Source of the DNA: TM7 phylum sp. oral taxon 352
GTDB lineage: Bacteria > Patescibacteriota > Saccharimonadia > Saccharimonadales > Saccharimonadaceae
Assembly: GCA_007845355.1 (NCBI GenBank)
Contig: SDRQ01000004.1
Span: 1 to 53,305, forward strand
DNA: 53,305 nt
Direction: 5' to 3'
The translations under genes were made by a program, and so were the position numbers. Position 1 is the first letter of the stretch. Each line of letters begins with the position of its first letter. The notes beneath the pieces were generated by a model. That model had not been told where the DNA came from, made no database searches, and saw only the letters and a list, made by a program, of their open reading frames with translations. Shown here piece by piece: positions 3,673 to 35,782 of the stretch.

Positions 3673-4431
3673 TTAACCTTTATGTGCTTTCGAGATTATC
3701 TCCTTAAATTGATATGCATCCAAACTGGCTGCTCCAACCAATAAACCATCAAGTTCATCAATTGCTAAATAATCTGCGGCGTTTATTGACGTAATACTTC
3801 CACCATAGACAACTCGAACTGATTCCGCCGCTTTTTTACCGTACAAATGAGAAATATGTCGTCGAATCATCTGTGTAGCTTTTTTTACATCAGACGCTTT
3901 AGCGCTGTCGCCAGTACCGATTGCCCAAACTGGCTCATATGCAATAACTACTTCATCCAGCTCGTCCGCCGTCACGTTAGCCAGGCCGCTAGTCAACTGA
4001 TCAGCCAGAACATCCTTCGTTTCGCCAAGAGTCTTCTCTTGAATCGTTTCACCAACACACAGAATCGGATGAATACGATTTCGAATTGCCGCCTGAACTT
4101 TCAGTCGAATATCTTTTTCGCTTTCAATGAAAATATAGCGACGCTCCGAATGTCCGATCAATACATAATCAGCAATTCCACGAAGATGCGCCGCTGGAAT
4201 TTCTCCCGTGTACGCCCCCGAATCTCGCCAATAGCAATTCTGAGCCGCCAACTTAGCGATTCGACGATTAATTTGTAAACTCAAACTCTGCAGCGTCAAA
4301 ATAGTAGGCGCCAGCACCACTTCAACATCTCTATGCGATGGAAGCGTGTTCATCAGCTTATGCAAATATAAGCTAGCCTCTTGCATATTGAAGTTCATTT
4401 TCCAGTTACCGATGATTAACTTTTTTCTCAT
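3673..4431 (-). CDS. tpiA: triosephosphate isomerase
   Basis: Interconverts dihydroxyacetone phosphate and glyceraldehyde 3-phosphate in cytosolic glycolysis. Visible hallmarks: the N-terminal Lys-Asn pair in GNWKMN, catalytic His in IGHSERR, catalytic Glu in VIAYEPVWAIGTG (including the loop-6 lid) and the phosphate-binding YGGSI near the C-terminus. At 252 residues it is the normal length. AAGGA lies 8 nt before the ATG. It follows pgk by 24 bp in a pyk-pgk-tpiA operon. Confidence 0.97.
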   Translation of the reverse strand: MRKKLIIGNWKMNFNMQEASLYLHKLMNTLPSHRDVEVVLAPTILTLQSLSLQINRRIAKLAAQNCYWRDSGAYTGEIPAAHLRGIADYVLIGHSERRYIFIESEKDIRLKVQAAIRNRIHPILCVGETIQEKTLGETKDVLADQLTSGLANVTADELDEVVIAYEPVWAIGTGDSAKASDVKKATQMIRRHISHLYGKKAAESVRVVYGGSITSINAADYLAIDELDGLLVGAASLDAYQFKEIISKAHKG

Positions 4432-4455
4432 GAGATAATCCTTATGCTTAGTTTA

Positions 4456-5694
4456 TCACCTCAAACCGTATGCGTCTAGTAAACTTTCAATTCCAGGCAA
4501 TTTTTTACCAGCCATCAAGGCCATGCTAGCTCCGCCACCAGTGGAAACATGGGTAAAATTGGCGCCGTCATGTCCGTCCCATTTCAATATAAAATCAGCT
4601 GTATCTCCGCCGCCAACTATTGAAACAACCCCTTTATTCTGGGCAATAGCTAGCGCTACTCGCGCTGAACCGATTGCAAAATTATCAATTTCAGCATAGC
4701 CCAGCGGACCATTCCAAACAACCATCTTCGCGCCGGCCAGTATTTTCGTGAATTTCTCAATTGTCTGACTTCCAATATCCAGCGCCATATCTGAGTTCTT
4801 TATTTTATCAATATTGACCTCTTGACGAGGAAAATCCTTAGAAATCTCTGGCGCAACCGCCATATCAATCGGCAATACCAAAAAATCGTCAACATTCTCT
4901 ACGCCAACCTTAGCCGCTGCCAAATCATAAATTTCCGCGACAACCTTTTCCATTCCTGGCTCAAACACACTCTTGCCGACATTAAATCCACGGCAATGTA
5001 AAAACGTGTTTGACATGGCGCCGCCAATTAAAATCCGATCCGCCTTTTTAATTAGACGCTTAATCAGTAATATTTTATCGCTAACTTTCGCGCCGCCAAT
5101 AACCGCAACCAACGGACGTTTTGGCTTATTCATCGCCTCAGTGATAGTTACATATTCTTTTTCTAATAGTAATCCCGCTAGCCCTGGAACACACAATGTA
5201 ATCGCATGAGTGCTGGCGTGCGCCCTGTGTGCGACCGCAAATCCGTCCTGCACAAAATAATCCGCTCGGACAGCGCGTTGAATTGACTTGGCAAATGTTA
5301 AATCGTCAGCCTCCTCCTCGTCATAAAAGCGTAAATTCTCCAACATAAGAATACTGCCTCGTGGCGCGCGGCGAATGGCTTGATGAACAGCTTCGCCCAC
5401 GCAATCATCCAGCAATTCTACCGGACGGCTCAGCAACTTGGATAGGTGATCTGCGACAACTTTCAGACTAAACTTAAGATCCCTACCTTTTGGTCGCCCC
5501 AGATGAGACATGATAACAATCTTGCAATTCTGCTCCAGCAAATATCGGAGCGTGGGCAGCGAAGCGCGAATTCTTAGATCGTCAGAAATCTGACCACGCT
5601 TTGTTAGTGGCACATTATAATCTGCTCGCAGAAGAATAGTTTTTCCACGTAGATCAACATCGCGAATTGTTTGCTTCGGAAATTTTCTGCCCAC
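4456..5694 (-). CDS. pgk: phosphoglycerate kinase
   Basis: Transfers phosphate between 1,3-bisphosphoglycerate and ADP, the first ATP-yielding step of lower glycolysis. Substrate-site sequences are intact: LLRADYNVPL, the SHLGRP loop, a basic-patch Arg in LENLRFY, then GGAKVSDKI and the C-terminal nucleotide-domain GGGDTADF and STGGGASM. At 412 residues it is slightly longer than average but otherwise typical. The start is GTG (reverse strand at 5694), chosen because AGGAG lies 7 nt upstream; that Shine-Dalgarno overlaps the stop of pyk, so the two genes are translationally coupled. Confidence 0.97.
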   Translation of the reverse strand: MGRKFPKQTIRDVDLRGKTILLRADYNVPLTKRGQISDDLRIRASLPTLRYLLEQNCKIVIMSHLGRPKGRDLKFSLKVVADHLSKLLSRPVELLDDCVGEAVHQAIRRAPRGSILMLENLRFYDEEEADDLTFAKSIQRAVRADYFVQDGFAVAHRAHASTHAITLCVPGLAGLLLEKEYVTITEAMNKPKRPLVAVIGGAKVSDKILLIKRLIKKADRILIGGAMSNTFLHCRGFNVGKSVFEPGMEKVVAEIYDLAAAKVGVENVDDFLVLPIDMAVAPEISKDFPRQEVNIDKIKNSDMALDIGSQTIEKFTKILAGAKMVVWNGPLGYAEIDNFAIGSARVALAIAQNKGVVSIVGGGDTADFILKWDGHDGANFTHVSTGGGASMALMAGKKLPGIESLLDAYGLR

Positions 5695-9515: not shown

Positions 9516-11671
9516 CGAACTGGCAGATTAAATCCAAAGGTACTGCCTTTTCCTTCTTCTGATTCAAAGATCATTTCGCCGTCGTGCGATAAAATAACTT
9601 TCCTCGCCAAAAATAAGCCAACGCCAGTGCCGTCTGGCCGCTTTTTTCTGGCATTTGTGCCGCGGAAGAATTTGCCAAACAGATTTGCTTGCTCTGATTT
9701 TGGCACACCAATTCCCGAGTCTTTCACCGTAAATTCAATCGCGCCATTACTATTTTTCAGAGAAATTATTACCTTTTTGTGCGGATTTGAATAGTAAATA
9801 GCATTGTCGATCATATTCAGCATAACTTGACGAATCTTCTCAGAGTCGGCTGTAATCAGTGGAACTTTTCTATCAATCTTTAGGTCCATTTCAACAGACC
9901 TCTGATCAGCCACAACTTTAAGCAACGCAACTTCATCCCGAAGAATTTGAGCAACGTCTGTCTCCTGTTTATCAATGTTAAATTTACCAGTCTGAAGCCT
10001 AGAAACATTAAGAAAGTCGTTTATTAGCCTCACCATACGCTCACTCGAAGAAAACGCCTCTCTAAGAACCGCACGTTGCGTCGGCGTAATCTTCCCCAGA
10101 TCGCCCTCCAGCATCATATCCAGATAACCTTTAATACTAGTCAACGGTGTCCTTAACTGATGTGAAGCCATAGAAATAAATTCGTTCTTCGCCTCGTCTA
10201 GTCGCTGAAGCTGTCGATTACTAAACCTCAATTCTTTCGTCGCCTCGTCAATTTTACGCTGCAAACTCTTATTCAACTCATTAATCTCTTCCAATGACAA
10301 AGAATTTCGAATCGACACCGCCAGTTCCCCAGCAATCGATTCCAGCATTTCAATATCGCGAGAACTATACCCCAAACTCTTATGCTCGCCCAGAAATAGA
10401 ATTCCCGTTTCTTGATTTTGATGCAGCAGCGGCATAACAATTTTCGTGCGATGAATATCCAAAAGTTTCTTCAGCTCTGGATCTTTTACTTGATTTGCCA
10501 AAATAACTTCCGGAAAACTGCAATTCTTATAATAGTAATCCATAATCCTGCGAACATCTTCCTCGACAACAGATATTCGTCGCCGACCCGCTCGACCATA
10601 TATTCCTTTTTCCGGAATACAAAACGCCACTTTTTCCGCCTTAAGAGAAGTTGCTATATAATTGCCAACACGTCGAGTTAGCAATTGCAGATCCGCCGTA
10701 TAGGTTAATATTTTACTAATCTCACGCGTAAACGTATCAGCGTCATACTCTCCGTAATAAAAAACTCTATCAGTAAATTTATCAAAGATTTTCTTCACTG
10801 GTTGATATACGACAGCCAAAACCATAGCCAAAATCATATTCATAAGATTTACGTGACTATCAACCGTCAGGCTGCGTTGGAAAACCAAAATTGAAATGAC
10901 ATATGCAGAAATCACGTAAACGACAGCTAGTGCGATTAATAGCAACATATACGAAACGCTTCGAGCCACCGCCATTTTTACGTCCATCAATCGGTACCTG
11001 ACGATGCTATACATAATTGCAAATAAGAAAATAATCGTAGCAATTGGACCAATCCATATATATCGATAATCACCAAGCGCCGGAAGAAACAGATCCACTA
11101 CAAAGCCAGGAATGCTACATATCAACAGGCCAATCATGTAAATCGCGACTTGCTTGCGTCGAACAGGATCTGATTTGCGCCACGCTATATAACCAAAACA
11201 CATAGAGATTAAGAAGAATACCGAGAAAAAAGTTGCAAAAATAACATAGTTGACTGCATGAATCGGAATTCGAGAAAAATCTACTGGCGTGACAATTTCT
11301 GATGTATTGACAATAAACTCAGGAACCAAAATAATATATAGCGAAAAAATCGTTATCAATATACTAGACGCGCAGATAAAACTTTTCGTTGATTTTGTCG
11401 ATGGAAGAAACGACTTTGTAGTGAAAATAGCCAACGCAGGACAAAAAACAGCCGAAGCTACATAAAACCACCTGGACGCAGTGTCCAATGTTACTTCCCT
11501 GTCCGCCAGAGAAAACACTTCAAGTCCAGCCGACCACACAGCCAAACATAAACAAACCAGAAAAAACCAATACTTTGCATCATGACGATGCTTCGACTTT
11601 TTGAGTACGAGCACGCCCAAAATTAGCGCCATCAACGCAACCAATCCTAGCACTAATGCTCGTATCATCAT
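9512..11671 (-). CDS. 7TM sensor histidine kinase
   Basis: A 719-residue membrane sensor. Seven or eight hydrophobic helices fill residues 1-~300 (HisKA_7TM-like sensor). A GAF-like region at about 330-470 follows, then a coiled linker (NELNKSLQRKIDEATKELR). The kinase core has the H-box FISMASHQLRTPL (phospho-His about residue 504), N-box MIDNAIYYS, G1 DSGIGVP, F-box FGKFFRG and G2 GTGVGLFLAR. It should autophosphorylate and pass phosphate to a receiver. The lone receiver at 13088 is the nearest candidate but is on the other strand. TATAAT lies 10 nt before the ATG. No ligand is evident. Confidence 0.93.
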   Translation of the reverse strand: MMIRALVLGLVALMALILGVLVLKKSKHRHDAKYWFFLVCLCLAVWSAGLEVFSLADREVTLDTASRWFYVASAVFCPALAIFTTKSFLPSTKSTKSFICASSILITIFSLYIILVPEFIVNTSEIVTPVDFSRIPIHAVNYVIFATFFSVFFLISMCFGYIAWRKSDPVRRKQVAIYMIGLLICSIPGFVVDLFLPALGDYRYIWIGPIATIIFLFAIMYSIVRYRLMDVKMAVARSVSYMLLLIALAVVYVISAYVISILVFQRSLTVDSHVNLMNMILAMVLAVVYQPVKKIFDKFTDRVFYYGEYDADTFTREISKILTYTADLQLLTRRVGNYIATSLKAEKVAFCIPEKGIYGRAGRRRISVVEEDVRRIMDYYYKNCSFPEVILANQVKDPELKKLLDIHRTKIVMPLLHQNQETGILFLGEHKSLGYSSRDIEMLESIAGELAVSIRNSLSLEEINELNKSLQRKIDEATKELRFSNRQLQRLDEAKNEFISMASHQLRTPLTSIKGYLDMMLEGDLGKITPTQRAVLREAFSSSERMVRLINDFLNVSRLQTGKFNIDKQETDVAQILRDEVALLKVVADQRSVEMDLKIDRKVPLITADSEKIRQVMLNMIDNAIYYSNPHKKVIISLKNSNGAIEFTVKDSGIGVPKSEQANLFGKFFRGTNARKKRPDGTGVGLFLARKVILSHDGEMIFESEEGKGSTFGFNLPVR

Positions 11672-11697
11672 ACTAATGCTTATTATAGCATTTTATT

Positions 11698-13047
11698 CTA
11701 CGTTTCAATCGCAAAAACTGTGTAAACGCCGCTCGCAGTAACTGTAGCTTCAATAGATTCTTTTGGTATGCCAGATTTTTGGAGCAATTTAAAACCTTCT
11801 TTAATTGAGCGCATCCTAACCTTTGGAACCCACCCCATTAGTCCATGCAAAAATTCTTTTTGTGGGCGATTTACGTTCATATTGCCAGTGATCATTAGTC
11901 CACCAGTTCGTAAAAACTTCAATGATTCTCGTGTCAATTGCTTATAAACACCGTCTGGCAAATATTCTCGCAAGCCAGAATCTTCCGCAATATCCAGTTT
12001 ACGATTGCCCAAAACTCCCTCCAAACTCAGAGGCTTGCCAAGCTTGCTGAATAATCGCTCACAATGAACTTCAATCTTATCTTCCAAATTCCATTTCTTC
12101 GCCAAACTTTGTGCTGCCGCTAGAGACAACGTATCTTGGTCCAGCAGAATTACCGTCGGCGCCTCACCCGTTTCATCCTTAAGTTTTTTCAGCATCTTCA
12201 AAGTCGCCAGTCCTGTTCCGCAACCAAAACTCATCACCAACATATCGTCAATCGAACGATTATCTTTTTCTGCCACTTTCTTCAAATGATCAATCGACAA
12301 ACCGTTCACTGTTTCCACTCGCTCACGAATACCAAGCGAATCCGCACAATGCCGAATGACGTTAGAAAACTTCTCCGTCACCGGCGCCTGGATGAATTCT
12401 CGGACTTCACTAATTCTCTTCTCTACTTCTTCAATAGCCGTCGATTTATCCACACCGTTGTTGACTTTATCTTGAATCATAACTTCCGTCAGCGGCAAAC
12501 CATTAATCTTCTCATCAAATACCGACTCATCCAGCGGACCACTCATAGTTGGATATTTACCTTCTGACAATATTTCGCCATTTTTACCAAAAACACTTAA
12601 GCCCTCAGCTTCAGAAATTGTTAAAAACGTCAGTGCGGAACCTCGCTGATTGTGCCACGGCTTCGAATCAGTTTGATCTTTACCGTATAGAAATTTATCA
12701 CGAGAAACCTCCAGATATGAATCTATATCATTACCCCATTTATTTTCTCTCACAAAAGGAATCTTTTCTAGAACATTCGCAATTGCCGCGGTGGCTAAAT
12801 TTTTATGAATAATATCTTTACGAACATCCTTTAATTCCGCCCCGCCTTGCTCCAGATAATTGTATATGTCCTGAATTTTATCCGGATTATTATATGCAAA
12901 ATCAGTCTTTTCTCCAATTTTAACCCTACACTCCTCACTTCTAAGATCCGCAATTTCCTCGTTTAATTTTTCATTAGCTTCATGATCAATTCCATTAAGA
13001 AAATCACCTGTTTCTGTAATATACTGTTCGCCTCTAAATTTTTCCAT
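11698..13047 (-). CDS. class I SAM-dependent methyltransferase-like protein
   Basis: 449 residues. The C-terminal ~200 hold a Rossmann methyltransferase signature: motif I MLVMSFGCGTGLATLKML, then an acidic strand end VILLDQDTLSLAAAQSL, and later DGVYKQLTRESLKFLRTGGLMITGNM as the motif IV/V region. The N-terminal ~230 residues are charged and unlike any family I recognise. Substrate unknown. Start: TATAAT ends 7 nt before the ATG. It is divergent from the receiver gene and upstream of the histidine kinase (26 bp), so the three may form one signalling module. Confidence 0.7.
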   Translation of the reverse strand: MEKFRGEQYITETGDFLNGIDHEANEKLNEEIADLRSEECRVKIGEKTDFAYNNPDKIQDIYNYLEQGGAELKDVRKDIIHKNLATAAIANVLEKIPFVRENKWGNDIDSYLEVSRDKFLYGKDQTDSKPWHNQRGSALTFLTISEAEGLSVFGKNGEILSEGKYPTMSGPLDESVFDEKINGLPLTEVMIQDKVNNGVDKSTAIEEVEKRISEVREFIQAPVTEKFSNVIRHCADSLGIRERVETVNGLSIDHLKKVAEKDNRSIDDMLVMSFGCGTGLATLKMLKKLKDETGEAPTVILLDQDTLSLAAAQSLAKKWNLEDKIEVHCERLFSKLGKPLSLEGVLGNRKLDIAEDSGLREYLPDGVYKQLTRESLKFLRTGGLMITGNMNVNRPQKEFLHGLMGWVPKVRMRSIKEGFKLLQKSGIPKESIEATVTASGVYTVFAIET

Positions 13048-13054
13048 GCCAAAA

Positions 13055-13060
13055 ATTATA
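13055..13060 (-). promoter_or_regulatory. -10 box of the methyltransferase, leaderless
   Basis: TATAAT on the minus strand, 7 nt before the ATG at 13047. Confidence 0.65.
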
Positions 13061-13075
13061 ACATAATTTATGTGA

Positions 13076-13081
13076 TATACT
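13076..13081 (+). promoter_or_regulatory. -10 box of the receiver gene, leaderless
   Basis: TATACT ends 6 nt before the ATG at 13088. It is back to back with the methyltransferase promoter (16 bp apart). Confidence 0.65.
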
Positions 13082-13087
13082 TAAAGC

Positions 13088-13459
13088 ATGATAAAAATCG
13101 CTATCATTGAAGACGACCCAACCATCAGCCAGATGTACCGAATGAAGTTCGAGTCGGACGGATTTGACGTTCGCTTGGCCGCCAACGGACAAATTGGCAT
13201 AGAAGTAGTCGAGAAGTTTCAGCCAGACATTATTTTGCTAGATTTACAAATGCCGGAAATGGACGGCGCGGAGGCTTTGAAACGAATTAGGTCTAAAGAT
13301 TGGGGAAAAACTATTCCCGTTATCGTCCTCACTAATCTCGGCGAAGAAGAAGCTCCGCACGATTTGAAGAAATTAGGAATTCATAGCTATATCGTAAAAG
13401 CTAATCTCACGCCACGCCAAGTCGTCGAGCAGGTCAAAGCTGCCATAAAAACTGCTTAA
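13088..13459 (+). CDS. single-domain response regulator (CheY-like)
   Basis: 123 residues covering one receiver domain and nothing else. The acidic pocket IIEDDP is at residues 6-11, phospho-acceptor Asp in IILLDLQMPEMDG (about D55), switch Thr in VIVLTNLG and the conserved Lys in SYIVKANL. With no output domain it would act by protein contact, for example in a phosphorelay or on the pilus. A partner kinase is encoded 1.4 kb away on the other strand. Its stop TAA shares TTAA with the folD stop. Confidence 0.93.
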   Translation: MIKIAIIEDDPTISQMYRMKFESDGFDVRLAANGQIGIEVVEKFQPDIILLDLQMPEMDGAEALKRIRSKDWGKTIPVIVLTNLGEEEAPHDLKKLGIHSYIVKANLTPRQVVEQVKAAIKTA

Positions 13460-14268
13460 CTTTTTGATTGATTCGCAATTTTTAGACAAGCCGTAATTAC
13501 GTTATCAAACAGCGCAGAAACCGTTAATGGACCAACTCCGCCTTTTTTTGGTGTAATAATTACATCATTACGCTGACGCACTTCTTCAGATACGTCGCCA
13601 ACAATTTTTCCATTTTCCGAAGCAGTTCCCGCGTCAACAACGACCGCCTTAGTCTTAATCATCTGGCTTTTAATCAGCTCTGGAACTCCAGTTGCCGACA
13701 CGATAATATCGTAATTTATCAATTGAGATAAATCGTCACCTTTTTCAAAAACCGTCACATCAACGCCAGACTTCAGCCACATTTTCTCAAGAGGCGCACC
13801 AACCAAGCGACCTCGCCCGACAATTGCGACTTTCTTACCCTTCAAATCAACGCCATATCCAGCCAGTAGCCAACCAATAGCCGTTGGCGTAGCCGCCTGA
13901 AAAATCGCCCTCTTGCGCAAACCATCAACATCTTTATCTTCTCGAATACTCTCGAGTAGTTCCTCAGTCTGATCAGAATTACTAATCGGCAATTGCAGAA
14001 TTATTCCTTGAACGTCGTCTCGATTGTTCAATTCTTGAATCACCTCCAAAGCGCCGCCCGCAGGGACTCGATGAATCTCCACGTCAATCAAAATATCAGC
14101 GCCATACCTCTGCTTCAAACGCATATACGTTTCAATGACTGGATTTTCGACATCAGTAACAATTGCCAAACGAGGATTAATATGCCAAGCCTGCCTTAAA
14201 GCTCGCACCTGTTTCGCCTGGCGCTCCTTGATAAATCCAGCTAATTCTGAGCCATTTAATTCTCTCAT
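13456..14268 (-). CDS. folD: bifunctional methylene-THF dehydrogenase/cyclohydrolase
   Basis: Interconverts methylene-, methenyl- and formyl-tetrahydrofolate, feeding purine and formyl-Met synthesis; glyA in this window supplies the methylene unit. Motifs: catalytic Tyr/Lys in PVIETYMRLKQRYG, LQLPI, KDVDGL, NAD(P)-loop VGRGRLVGAPLE and C-terminal GGVGPLT. The frame extends upstream to 14343, but that would lie across the tRNA-His promoter. TATACT at 14277-14282 puts the transcript start at the ATG of 14268 (8 nt), giving MRELNGSEL; 14274 is a possible alternative. About 270 residues, normal or slightly short. Confidence 0.94.
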   Translation of the reverse strand: MRELNGSELAGFIKERQAKQVRALRQAWHINPRLAIVTDVENPVIETYMRLKQRYGADILIDVEIHRVPAGGALEVIQELNNRDDVQGIILQLPISNSDQTEELLESIREDKDVDGLRKRAIFQAATPTAIGWLLAGYGVDLKGKKVAIVGRGRLVGAPLEKMWLKSGVDVTVFEKGDDLSQLINYDIIVSATGVPELIKSQMIKTKAVVVDAGTASENGKIVGDVSEEVRQRNDVIITPKKGGVGPLTVSALFDNVITACLKIANQSKS

Positions 14269-31694: not shown

Positions 31695-31918
31695 AATATA
31701 TTGAATGATTTCAATTGGTCGAGAAAAACAAATGCTCCTCGAACTTTTTGATTACATAGTAGCGAACAAGGCGGCTGCAAGCAGACTTTTGTCAGAAATT
31801 AGAGTCACGTGTTCATCACGGTCCGCTACTTTTGTTGGTAATATTGTATATTAGCATCACACTATTGATGCTTCACTTCTGTTAAACTAAGCCGGGCACA
31901 TTTTCATTACTAGAGTGA
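31695..31918. other. gene-free left part of the element
   Basis: No open frame of note. It holds GTAGCG (31759-31764) paired with CGCTAC (31824-31829) followed by TTTT, with small hairpins inside, and AGCATC-N8-GATGCT (31853-31872). It may contain the left attachment site or a second small RNA; neither can be shown. Confidence 0.35.
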
Positions 31919-31930: not shown

Positions 31931-32073
31931 CATGCAACCTAAACCGCCTTGGCGGCATGGTTGTTATAAAAACCATCGTGAAATAACAGCTCGTCGTCAG
32001 AGCACTATTTCACGATGGTCGGTACTGGAAACGGTATCGGGTAGCTTCGGCTATCACTGGCGGCGAGCTTTTT
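31931..32073 (+). ncRNA. candidate structured RNA with long hairpin and pseudoknot
   Basis: A 14-bp perfect stem pairs 31972-31985 with 32006-32019 (ACCATCGTGAAATA/TATTTCACGATGGT). Its 20-nt loop contains AGCTCGTCGTC (31988-31998), which pairs over 11 bp with GGCGGCGAGCT (32059-32069) followed by TTTTT. Between them GGTAGC-TTCG-GCTATC forms a UUCG-capped hairpin. Upstream, CCGCC/GGCGG and ATGGTT/AACCAT can also fold, the latter competing with the long stem. It ends ~40 nt before the next gene's Shine-Dalgarno. It may be a separate small RNA or a cis-regulatory leader. No match to RNase P, tmRNA or SRP core motifs. Confidence 0.55.
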
Positions 32074-32985: not shown

Positions 32986-32989
32986 CTCA

Positions 32990-33114
32990 CATCTACAAGG
33001 CAAGATGATTAAGCATGGGTAGAGCTTACTACAAGACAAGTACGCTTAACAGGGATGGACCGTCTACAAGGCAAGACGGCTAGAAGGGGCAAGAATATCT
33101 ATAAAGCAAGCTGT
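32990..33114 (+). repeat. array of four hairpins with a conserved loop, 35-36 bp period
   Basis: Loop ACAAGGCA (or close variants) recurs at 32995, 33031, 33066 and 33101. Each copy is flanked by different but self-complementary arms: CATCT/AGATG, AGCTTACT/AGTACGCT (one mismatch), CCGTCT/AGACGG and ATATCT/AGCTGT (one mismatch, one G-U). Linkers between the first three and their successors share a GGG. The arms vary while pairing is kept, so selection is on RNA (or cruciform) structure, not on sequence. It starts 5 bp after the stop of the 289-aa membrane gene, hence probably its 3' UTR. Confidence 0.7.
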
Positions 33115-33143
33115 CTGTATCACTATGATTCATTGGTATTTTG

Positions 33144-33149
33144 TATAAT
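33144..33149 (+). promoter_or_regulatory. -10 box of the 201-aa element gene, leaderless
   Basis: TATAAT ends 7 nt before the ATG at 33157. Confidence 0.65.
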
Positions 33150-33816: not shown

Positions 33817-34014
33817 ATGAGTAAAGTCACATCGTGCACTAAAGATACACGGCGCTCACCTGTTTACAGGTCCACTGGTATTGCCGTGATTGATCTTGTA
33901 GCTCTACTGCAGTTATGTGAAAAATTTGAGCACGATTCTGACGAATTAATCAGTTATATTGATGAATTTGATAGCAAAACTGGTAAAACAATTTCTGTAA
34001 AAATAGTATTCTAG
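33817..34014 (+). CDS. small element-borne hypothetical protein
   Basis: 65 residues. The second half (STGIAVIDLVALLQLCEKFEHDSDELISYIDEFDSK) could form helices. TATACC lies 8 nt before the ATG and no Shine-Dalgarno is present, in keeping with the leaderless pattern. It sits between the 201-aa gene and the recombinase, in the place where excision factors often occur. Small size keeps confidence low. Confidence 0.45.
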   Translation: MSKVTSCTKDTRRSPVYRSTGIAVIDLVALLQLCEKFEHDSDELISYIDEFDSKTGKTISVKIVF

Positions 34015-34056: not shown

Positions 34057-35763
34057 ATGGAGAGTTCGGATAGCAGATCATCATCTAGTACAGTTCATGA
34101 CCTGTATAGCCTGCTGATGAACACTATTCCAGACGCACCCACCGATGTAGACTTTAAGGAGCTAAATTATGTTATTTATGCCCGCAAATCTACCACGGGA
34201 GACGAAAGACAGGAACGATCGATACCCGACCAGATAAAAGACTGTATTGAGCGTGTGGTGAAGCCTGAGGGGCTACGAATCGTTGGCGAGCCAGTAGAGG
34301 AAAAACAATCTGCAAAAGATCCTGGTATTCGCCCAAAATTCAGCAAGTTATTAGATGATATACGCTATGGCGAGGTTGATGGTATTATTGCCTGGCATCC
34401 CGACCGCCTGGCACGCAACATGAAAGAGGCTGGAGAGATTATTGACCTACTAGACAAAGGTATTCTCAAGGATATTCGCTTTGCCACCTCCGCCTTTGAA
34501 AACAGTCCGACAGGAAAAATGTTATTAGGTATATCATTTGTACTATCAAAGCAATACTCTGAACACCTGAGTGAAAGTGTAACAAGGGGCAATCGTCGTA
34601 AAACTGAAGATGGCTTTTTCTTTGATGAGCAAAAGCACGGATACTTCATTAAGGACGGCAGACTCTACCCTGACGGACGCAACTTTACACTCCTGCAACA
34701 GGCATTTCATAAACGAATAGAGGGAAATGCTACCCTACAAGAAATTGCCGATTGGCTGACTAGTGAGGGCTACGAGCTGCGGCGTAAAGGTAAAGAGCCT
34801 GTGAAGTTTGTGTGGAATGTAAATAAGATCTCCAATGTTTTTCACGACCCTATATACGCTGGCGTATTGAAATATGGCAAATCACTTGCAAAGCTTCAGG
34901 AGTATTACGACTTTCAGCCAATGATAAGTGTTGACGATTTCTTGAGACTCAACAAAATAAAGAGCCTTGACTCTACAAAGATTGTATCTTCAATGATGAT
35001 AAATAAAGGCAGGAACACAAAAGCGGATCTTTTGAGAGGTGTTGTATTTTGTGGTTTCTGCAATAAGAGTTTTAGCTCGGGATTAACTTCTAAGCAGCGC
35101 AAGGATGGTAGGATTTACTATTATAATTACAAGTGTGAGACCGACGGATGTGAGTTTAGGGGCAAAAGTGTTCGTGCCAATAAAGTATTGAACCATGCGT
35201 ATAGCTTTCTCGATAAGCATGTATTTGACACAGCGAGCAATTACAAACGGTTTGTTGAGGACTCTCGAGTTTATACTGCTCAATACTCAAAAGACCTCAC
35301 TTCAAGAATTATGTCATTCTCTAATGCTATCGGCTCAAAGAAGAGAGAATACGATAGCGTTAAGAAGCTTATTGTCACCAATCCCGACCTTAAGGGGCAT
35401 TACAACCTCGATGAAATTAGTGATGAATTAGATAGCCTACAAAAGGACCTGAGGAAACTAAGGCATCAAAAAGATAGCCTAAAAGAATCAATCCTTACAT
35501 ACGATGAATATCTCGAACTCTTCGGTTCTATATCTGATAGATTACGAAAAGTGACAGATATGACCCTTATTGACGGAGTGCTAAGAATTTTCTTCTCAAA
35601 CTTTACAGTAAAGCAATACGGAAGAGGAAAAGAACAGAGGTGTGAGATTACACATAAATTAAAGGAACCCTGGGAAGGGTTCCTAAAAAACGATGATTTC
35701 TCGTGTGGTCGGGGTGAAAGGACTCGAACCTTCGACCTCACGGTCCCAAACCGCGCGCGCTAG
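34057..35763 (+). CDS. large serine recombinase (integrase)
   Basis: About 568 residues. Resolvase domain at ~36-175 (VIYARKSTTGDERQERSIPDQ with nucleophile Ser about residue 45; IAWHPDRLARN). The recombinase domain (NATLQEIADWLTSEGYELRRKG ... VFHDPIYAGVLKYG) follows, then a zinc ribbon (VVFCGFCNKSF ... CETDGCEF) and a coiled coil (LDSLQKDLRKLRHQKDSLKES). This is the serine-integrase class that inserts elements between attB and attP. The last ~19 codons (GERTRTFDLTVPNRAR end) are antisense tRNA-Pro, and the preceding codons span the tRNA terminator. The C-terminus is therefore probably supplied by the chromosome at the insertion site. Confidence 0.92.
   Translation: MESSDSRSSSSTVHDLYSLLMNTIPDAPTDVDFKELNYVIYARKSTTGDERQERSIPDQIKDCIERVVKPEGLRIVGEPVEEKQSAKDPGIRPKFSKLLDDIRYGEVDGIIAWHPDRLARNMKEAGEIIDLLDKGILKDIRFATSAFENSPTGKMLLGISFVLSKQYSEHLSESVTRGNRRKTEDGFFFDEQKHGYFIKDGRLYPDGRNFTLLQQAFHKRIEGNATLQEIADWLTSEGYELRRKGKEPVKFVWNVNKISNVFHDPIYAGVLKYGKSLAKLQEYYDFQPMISVDDFLRLNKIKSLDSTKIVSSMMINKGRNTKADLLRGVVFCGFCNKSFSSGLTSKQRKDGRIYYYNYKCETDGCEFRGKSVRANKVLNHAYSFLDKHVFDTASNYKRFVEDSRVYTAQYSKDLTSRIMSFSNAIGSKKREYDSVKKLIVTNPDLKGHYNLDEISDELDSLQKDLRKLRHQKDSLKESILTYDEYLELFGSISDRLRKVTDMTLIDGVLRIFFSNFTVKQYGRGKEQRCEITHKLKEPWEGFLKNDDFSCGRGERTRTFDLTVPNRAR
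35656..35684 (-). terminator. terminator of tRNA-Pro, inside the recombinase 3' end
   Basis: AGGAACCC-loop-GGGTTCCT (35663-35684); on the minus strand it is followed by TTTAATTT. It lies 22 bp beyond the tRNA 3' end and within the recombinase coding sequence. Confidence 0.65.
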
Positions 35764-35782
35764 CCAACTGCGCCACACCCCG
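35706..35782 (-). tRNA. tRNA-Pro (UGG), target of the element
   Basis: The acceptor CGGGGTG pairs with CACCCCG, discriminator A, CCA encoded. Anticodon UGG in loop TTTGGGA, T-arm GAAGG/CCTTT. Its 3' 58 nt overlap the recombinase gene antisense. Confidence 0.96.

Follow-up and report, generated by a model that had tools for sequence, protein, structure and literature searches.

What reads a constant loop that is presented several times on changing stems? The question was raised by a short array in the window, the whole stretch of 53,305 nt analysed here from TM7 phylum sp. oral taxon 352. The array belongs to an element of about 4 kb, measured from a LOOT RNA to a tRNA gene. The parts of this window element are listed below, together with their counterparts in two related array elements, L011 (CALLZM010000014.1, uncultured Candidatus Saccharibacteria) and L334; R1 denotes the covariance model of the hairpin.

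31936-32055, + strand: LOOT RNA (RF03000), 71.1 bits against a gathering score of 46.4; also upstream in L011 and L334
32110-32985, + strand: cargo membrane protein, weakly DUF4231/SLATT-like, C-terminus common to the L334 cargo
32990-33007, + strand: hairpin 1, CATCT-ACAAGGCA-AGATG, stem 32990-32994/33003-33007 (5 bp); R1 27.5 bits, -3.8 kcal/mol
33023-33046, + strand: hairpin 2, AGCTTACT-ACAAGACA-AGTACGCT, stem 33023-33030/33039-33046 (7/8 bp, one T-C mismatch); R1 27.6 bits, -5.7 kcal/mol
33047-33054, + strand: TAACAGGG motif, common by alignment to the window, L011 and L334, directly 5' of a hairpin
33060-33079, + strand: hairpin 3, CCGTCT-ACAAGGCA-AGACGG, stem 33060-33065/33074-33079 (6 bp); R1 33.4 bits, -9.3 kcal/mol
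33095-33114, + strand: degenerate copy 4, ATATCT-ATAAAGCA-AGCTGT, arms 33095-33100/33109-33114; R1 23.9 bits, no fold alone
33144-33149, + strand: TATAAT, resembling a -10 box, 8 nt upstream of the 201-aa ORF; TATAAT has the corresponding position in L011 and L334
33157-33762, + strand: P0001, the 201-aa protein of the putative satellite, with a weak C-terminal HTH-like fold
33817-34014, + strand: 65-aa ORF, by inference a putative excisionase; a small ORF stands at the corresponding place in L011 and L334
34045-35763, + strand: large serine recombinase (Pfam Resolvase, 2.7e-21), 3' end overlapping tRNA-Pro
35706-35782, - strand: tRNA-Pro, presumed attachment site

The repeat CTAYAARRCAAG was found in four copies in the window, starting at 32993, 33029, 33064 and 33099, and its spacing of 36, 35 and 35 nt agreed with the preliminary description of the locus. 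The four tandem hairpins of that description were reduced to three good hairpins (loop ACAARRCA) and one degenerate copy, because the arms of copy 4 contained a T-C mismatch and one wobble and its MFE alone was 0. Near-identical repeats were absent from the array, only a 12-nt core being common to the copies, and the core CTACAAGRCAAG occurred in the host genome at this place only. Complementarity of the flanks gave P ~2.6e-4 for the window alone, the stability of the whole 151-nt array region was ordinary compared with shuffles (z -0.2), and no curated RNA family of Rfam matched the array at E 10. The first arm begins 5 nt past a stop codon, as had been stated, and this position fits the 3' UTR then proposed; against that proposal, a search of the + strand of the array region detected no intrinsic terminator (stem then T run), and the TATAAT box lies beyond the array. 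We infer that this box gives P0001 a leaderless mRNA.

No phage structural genes were seen among the ORFs of the window element, a search for its left att repeat found none, and terS was detected in none of the three array elements. Upstream of the LOOT RNA, at 31757-31830, a long-range complementary pair (GTAGCG/CGCTAC) and another ACAAGGC were observed, possibly marking a further structured RNA. The LOOT RNA scored above its cut-off in 50 of the 295 genomes of the order, and, of 36 LOOT loci retrieved, 9 had a serine recombinase within ~10 kb. It is a separate RNA, situated inside the array elements upstream of the cargo gene; pairing of this RNA with the loop of the array (GCCTTG with CAAGGC) was rejected, because the LOOT RNA of L011 had no complement and the other LOOT loci examined had no array. 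A de novo scan of 40 loci, including 36 LOOT loci, revealed no other convincing constant-loop array.

The window element, L011 and L334 shared the same order of LOOT RNA, cargo gene, array, P0001, small ORF, serine recombinase and tRNA, with TAACAGGG before one hairpin and TATAAT just before the P0001 ORF. In L011, eight hairpins were packed into ~300 nt immediately 5' of the P0001 homologue, their loops (e.g., ACAAAGCA, ACGAAGCA and TCAAAGCA) standing on unrelated stems, and flank complementarity in this independent homologous array reached P ~1.5e-11. L334 had two hairpins 104 nt apart, or about three units; its serine recombinase (reverse strand, rc coordinates 3977-5579) was read in two overlapping frames, indicating a frameshift or an assembly error. 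Compared with shuffles, the z scores of array stability were -7.4 for L011 and -4.5 for L334. The three array elements thus carried 2-8 non-coding copies each, located where terS would be, and tandem arrays were found only at the position of a missing terS.

Across the array elements the loop ACRARGCA was constant while the stems changed with compensation. In 19 hairpins, 83.6% of the cells were paired against 60% in shuffles, and the covariation exceeded 500 of 500 shuffles and all slides; the 13 array copies and the 8 gene copies also passed the test separately, the copies within one array being not mutually independent. The constant loop on a variable stem was therefore confirmed, with stems that compensate in homologous elements instead of losing their pairing and with none of the 500 shuffles reaching the same level. 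Pairing that is kept between homologous elements while the loop stays fixed suggests that the reader recognises a folded single strand. As to the nature of this strand, the inner six pairs of the 19 hairpins (114 pairs) comprised 104 Watson-Crick, 3 G-U, 2 A-C and 5 other pairs, and so few G-U pairs lean to DNA. The L011 and L334 arrays folded better on the sense strand, which leans to RNA; the window array had no sense bias (z -0.2 vs -1.5). When the degenerate copy L11d was left out, the inner-stem wobbles were G-U on the sense strand, with no A-C, and the hairpin copies were all oriented with the genes.

The loop with covarying arms, for which a search of other genomes had been suggested as a check, recurred in L011 and L334 and in genes of phages and satellite-like loci. 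The model R1 was built from the hairpins of the window, L011 and L007 (the same place as L054) and so matches there by construction; strong matches outside this training set were obtained in L050, L053, L055, L304, L306, L307 and L334. Weak R1 matches in other genomes fell within unrelated genes where checked and were taken as noise, and matches of the pattern GCTACAAAGCAAGC in viral contigs were mostly chance coding matches. Exact 18-mers matched three terS genes that were already known and four stretches unrelated to them; such matches also fell in unrelated coding genes.

In the phages, a single hairpin lay inside the terS-position gene, the one immediately preceding the gene of the large terminase (TerL), at its 5' end. 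The viral contig L304 has the order HNH, terS-like gene with the hairpin, TerL and portal, and the phages L306/L307 have HNH, terS and TerL with the hairpin ACCTGCT-ACAAAGCA-AGCAGGT; among six whole viral records, these three contained one strong copy each. The phages L308 and L309 kept the core with no stem, and L281, L282 and L295 had a hairpin at the terS position with variant loops. In the satellite-like loci L050, L053, L054 and L055, one hairpin, ACCGCT-ACAAAGCA-AGCGGT, fell within codons ~11-17 of a small terS-like gene, whose homologue immediately precedes TerL and portal in the prophages L281 and L282 and in L304; the terS-like genes of the satellite-like loci were ~59-65% identical to that of phage L304. 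At the corresponding gene place, L012 had CCATCT-ACCGACCT-AGATGG. The four-fold sites within the gene hairpin were all identical, compared with about half elsewhere in the gene (small numbers). A TKQ peptide was invariant in six terS-like proteins, including those of the stemless L308 and L309, and because the gene-position hairpins overlap it, part of their conservation may be at the protein level. The terS-position protein matched no terminase model of Pfam or NCBIfam; it may resemble DUF5681, a likeness that no Pfam model confirmed. Only one recurrent 12-mer, CTACRAAGCAAG, was common to the array elements and the phage or satellite terS regions, and no cosN-like sequence common to array elements and phages was found.

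Other features were observed around the terS-like genes. Upstream of the gene, CCAGCCTTTTCG was conserved in L050, L053 and L055, with a related sequence in L054, and a TATAAT/TAAAAT-like box shortly preceded the ATG in all four; together they may form a common promoter or regulatory site, possibly leaderless. In L277 (8383-8808), a terS-like gene without the ACRARGCA hairpin was preceded directly before its ATG by TATAGT-TTAGACTA-GCTATA.

P0001 adjoins the array in all three array elements and had been put forward as a protein that might bind it. Its homologues showed 63, 55 and 52% identity (63% in L011 and 52% in L334); distant homologues were present in L053, L054 and L055, none was seen in L050, and homologues elsewhere adjoined a putative terS-like gene (L278) or a small HTH gene (L280). 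The predicted structure (AF2 pLDDT 68.5) gave only weak HTH matches in a fold search (Z < 5), with no significant viral match, and the protein matched nothing in Pfam, NCBIfam or PADLOC, searches that a distant fold could escape. P0001 is unlikely to be the hairpin reader, as the viral contigs yielded no homologue and some homologues occur without the hairpin.

In L053, 7.0 kb between 94-nt att repeats at a tRNA contained a recombinase, a P0001 homologue, the terS-like gene with its hairpin and a defence-like cargo (OLD/AAA ATPase), and inspection by eye recognised no capsid or TerL genes. The cargo at 10666-13703 encodes an AAA_15/OLD-like ATPase (PADLOC NsnB, 6.5e-40) and a weakly restriction-enzyme-like protein, which suggests defence. 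Some PICIs encode terS and others carry the pac or cos of the helper, and cosB has three TerS sites (PMC6092414); the PICI protein Rpp redirects TerS (PMC6739421). As in PICIs of the SaPIbov4 type and EcCICFT073, which have no terS and carry cos/pac sites of the helper, the elements here are small and integrative: in the window the serine recombinase gene overlaps tRNA-Pro, and the relative L053 has att repeats. No phage structural genes were recognised in the window element or L053, nor capsid genes in the stretches read. Much as in PICIs, one class has its own terS-like gene and another only a putative packaging-region element with several sites (the window has an array alone, whose packaging role is presumed), and P0001, weakly HTH-like at its end, lies nearby. 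Unlike in PICIs, the packaging-region element is hairpin-shaped with variable arms, the host belongs to the CPR, the recombinase is of the serine type, and the size of ~4 kb for the window element and 7.0 kb for L053 falls short of the typical 12-15 kb (PMC6092414). Because the hairpin lies within phage terS-position genes, the element is probably phage-derived, and we read the window element, L011, L334 and the terS-bearing relatives as putative phage satellites.

On this evidence we tentatively favoured, at somewhat less than an even chance, the reading that the array would be a multiplied phage packaging-region recognition hairpin, carried by a satellite and acting as a cis packaging site. 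We regard the hairpin as a probable recognition element that belongs to the packaging module of the phage and that has been multiplied in satellites without terS; it more likely moved from phage to satellite than the other way round, and the array was probably copied from the phage packaging gene to exploit or interfere with that phage. The helper packaging machinery, through its terS-like protein, would read the ACRARGCA loop of the folded strand, P0001 with its weak HTH-like end could assist that protein in the manner of Rpp, and loop reading would select satellite DNA for packaging, the role of cosB/pac in PICIs without terS. The reading is supported by the terS-position hairpins of L304 and L306/L307, by those at the same place in L050, L053, L054 and L055 and, with variant stems or loops, in L012, L281, L282 and L295, by the restriction of arrays to places where terS is missing, by CTACRAAGCAAG as the sole recurrent 12-mer linking the two settings, by the tRNA-integrated L053 with no capsid or TerL seen, and by the PICI precedent of terS-bearing and pac/cos-bearing forms (PMC6092414) and of Rpp (PMC6739421). 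It is weakened by the want of a common cosN-like sequence, by L308 and L309, which keep the core without the stem, and by the terS-position protein, which no terminase model matched. Small-terminase genes bear recognition sites at or within their 5' ends in lambda (the R sites of cosB) and in P1 and SPP1 (pac sites), sometimes in repeated form, and the hairpin likewise lies at or in terS in the phages and terS-bearing relatives, the window having no terS. Those sites are read as double-stranded DNA and do not need complementary arms, whereas the hairpin arms here are complementary. This is unexpected of pac or cosB, because readers of double-stranded DNA would conserve the arms and not the loop, and we know of no pac or cosB site that requires complementary arms.

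It is also possible, though on balance doubtful, that the hairpin is an RNA operator in terS mRNA, bound by a phage RNA-binding protein (TerS or a regulator), and that the array titrates this protein as CsrB titrates CsrA; the array would then be transcribed from the cargo gene and act in trans as RNA, not in cis as DNA as in the packaging reading. The constant loop on compensating stems, the far better than shuffled folding of the L011 and L334 arrays and their preference for the sense strand, the G-U wobbles outside L11d and the common orientation with the genes all point this way, and CsrB/RsmZ sponge RNAs similarly combine many hairpins, a constant loop and variable stems with single copies in target genes. 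The sponge idea raised earlier is in this sense possible. Yet G-U pairs are scarce (3 of the 114 inner pairs), the window array is without sense bias, no terminator follows it, and the window element has no known RNA-binding protein; unlike CsrB/RsmZ, the loop is ACRARGCA and not GGA, and neither a dedicated sRNA promoter nor a terminator was found.

Three further explanations appear improbable. Repeats of ~35 nt directly before a ~200-aa gene in three elements recall a type III toxin-antitoxin pair, with the array as RNA antitoxin for the 201-aa protein, but this is hardly likely given that the repeats are not near-identical, that P0001 matched nothing, of the ToxN, CptN or TenpN kind or other, in Pfam, NCBIfam or PADLOC, which a distant fold may escape, that its homologues exist without hairpins, and that the hairpin occurs in phages while no P0001 homologue appeared in the viral-contig search. 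Single-strand origins are known that take the form of hairpins with conserved loops, and a site of this type in folded DNA, serving replication or strand transfer as a primase or initiator hairpin does, would explain the low wobble count at the DNA level; a place within terS-like genes is unusual for an origin and no replication protein was identified adjoining the hairpin, so that we consider such a site very unlikely. Conservation of the peptide (A/S)TKQ(A) might instead have produced the terS hairpin as a by-product, with the arrays as decayed pieces of terS, as the invariance of TKQ even in the stemless L308 and L309 and the 18-mer matches in unrelated coding genes would allow. This, too, has little probability: the residues on either side vary as reverse-complement pairs (PA..AG, TA..AV, ST..VD) along with nucleotide covariation, the array copies are non-coding with shifting frames and new stems, and in L012 the hairpin persists although the peptide differs.

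Our literature searches found no account of this hairpin or of satellites in Saccharibacteria. We propose, with about even confidence, that Saccharibacteria phages use a loop-read hairpin to mark the packaging gene and that satellites defeat or recruit the phage through a tandem array whose stems are free to change, either as a folded packaging signal or as an RNA decoy for packaging proteins, neither of which has been described as far as we found. One short hairpin connects the terS-bearing phages of these epibionts with elements in which no capsid genes were seen, and the array offers a testable case of a satellite that may be recognised through a folded hairpin.
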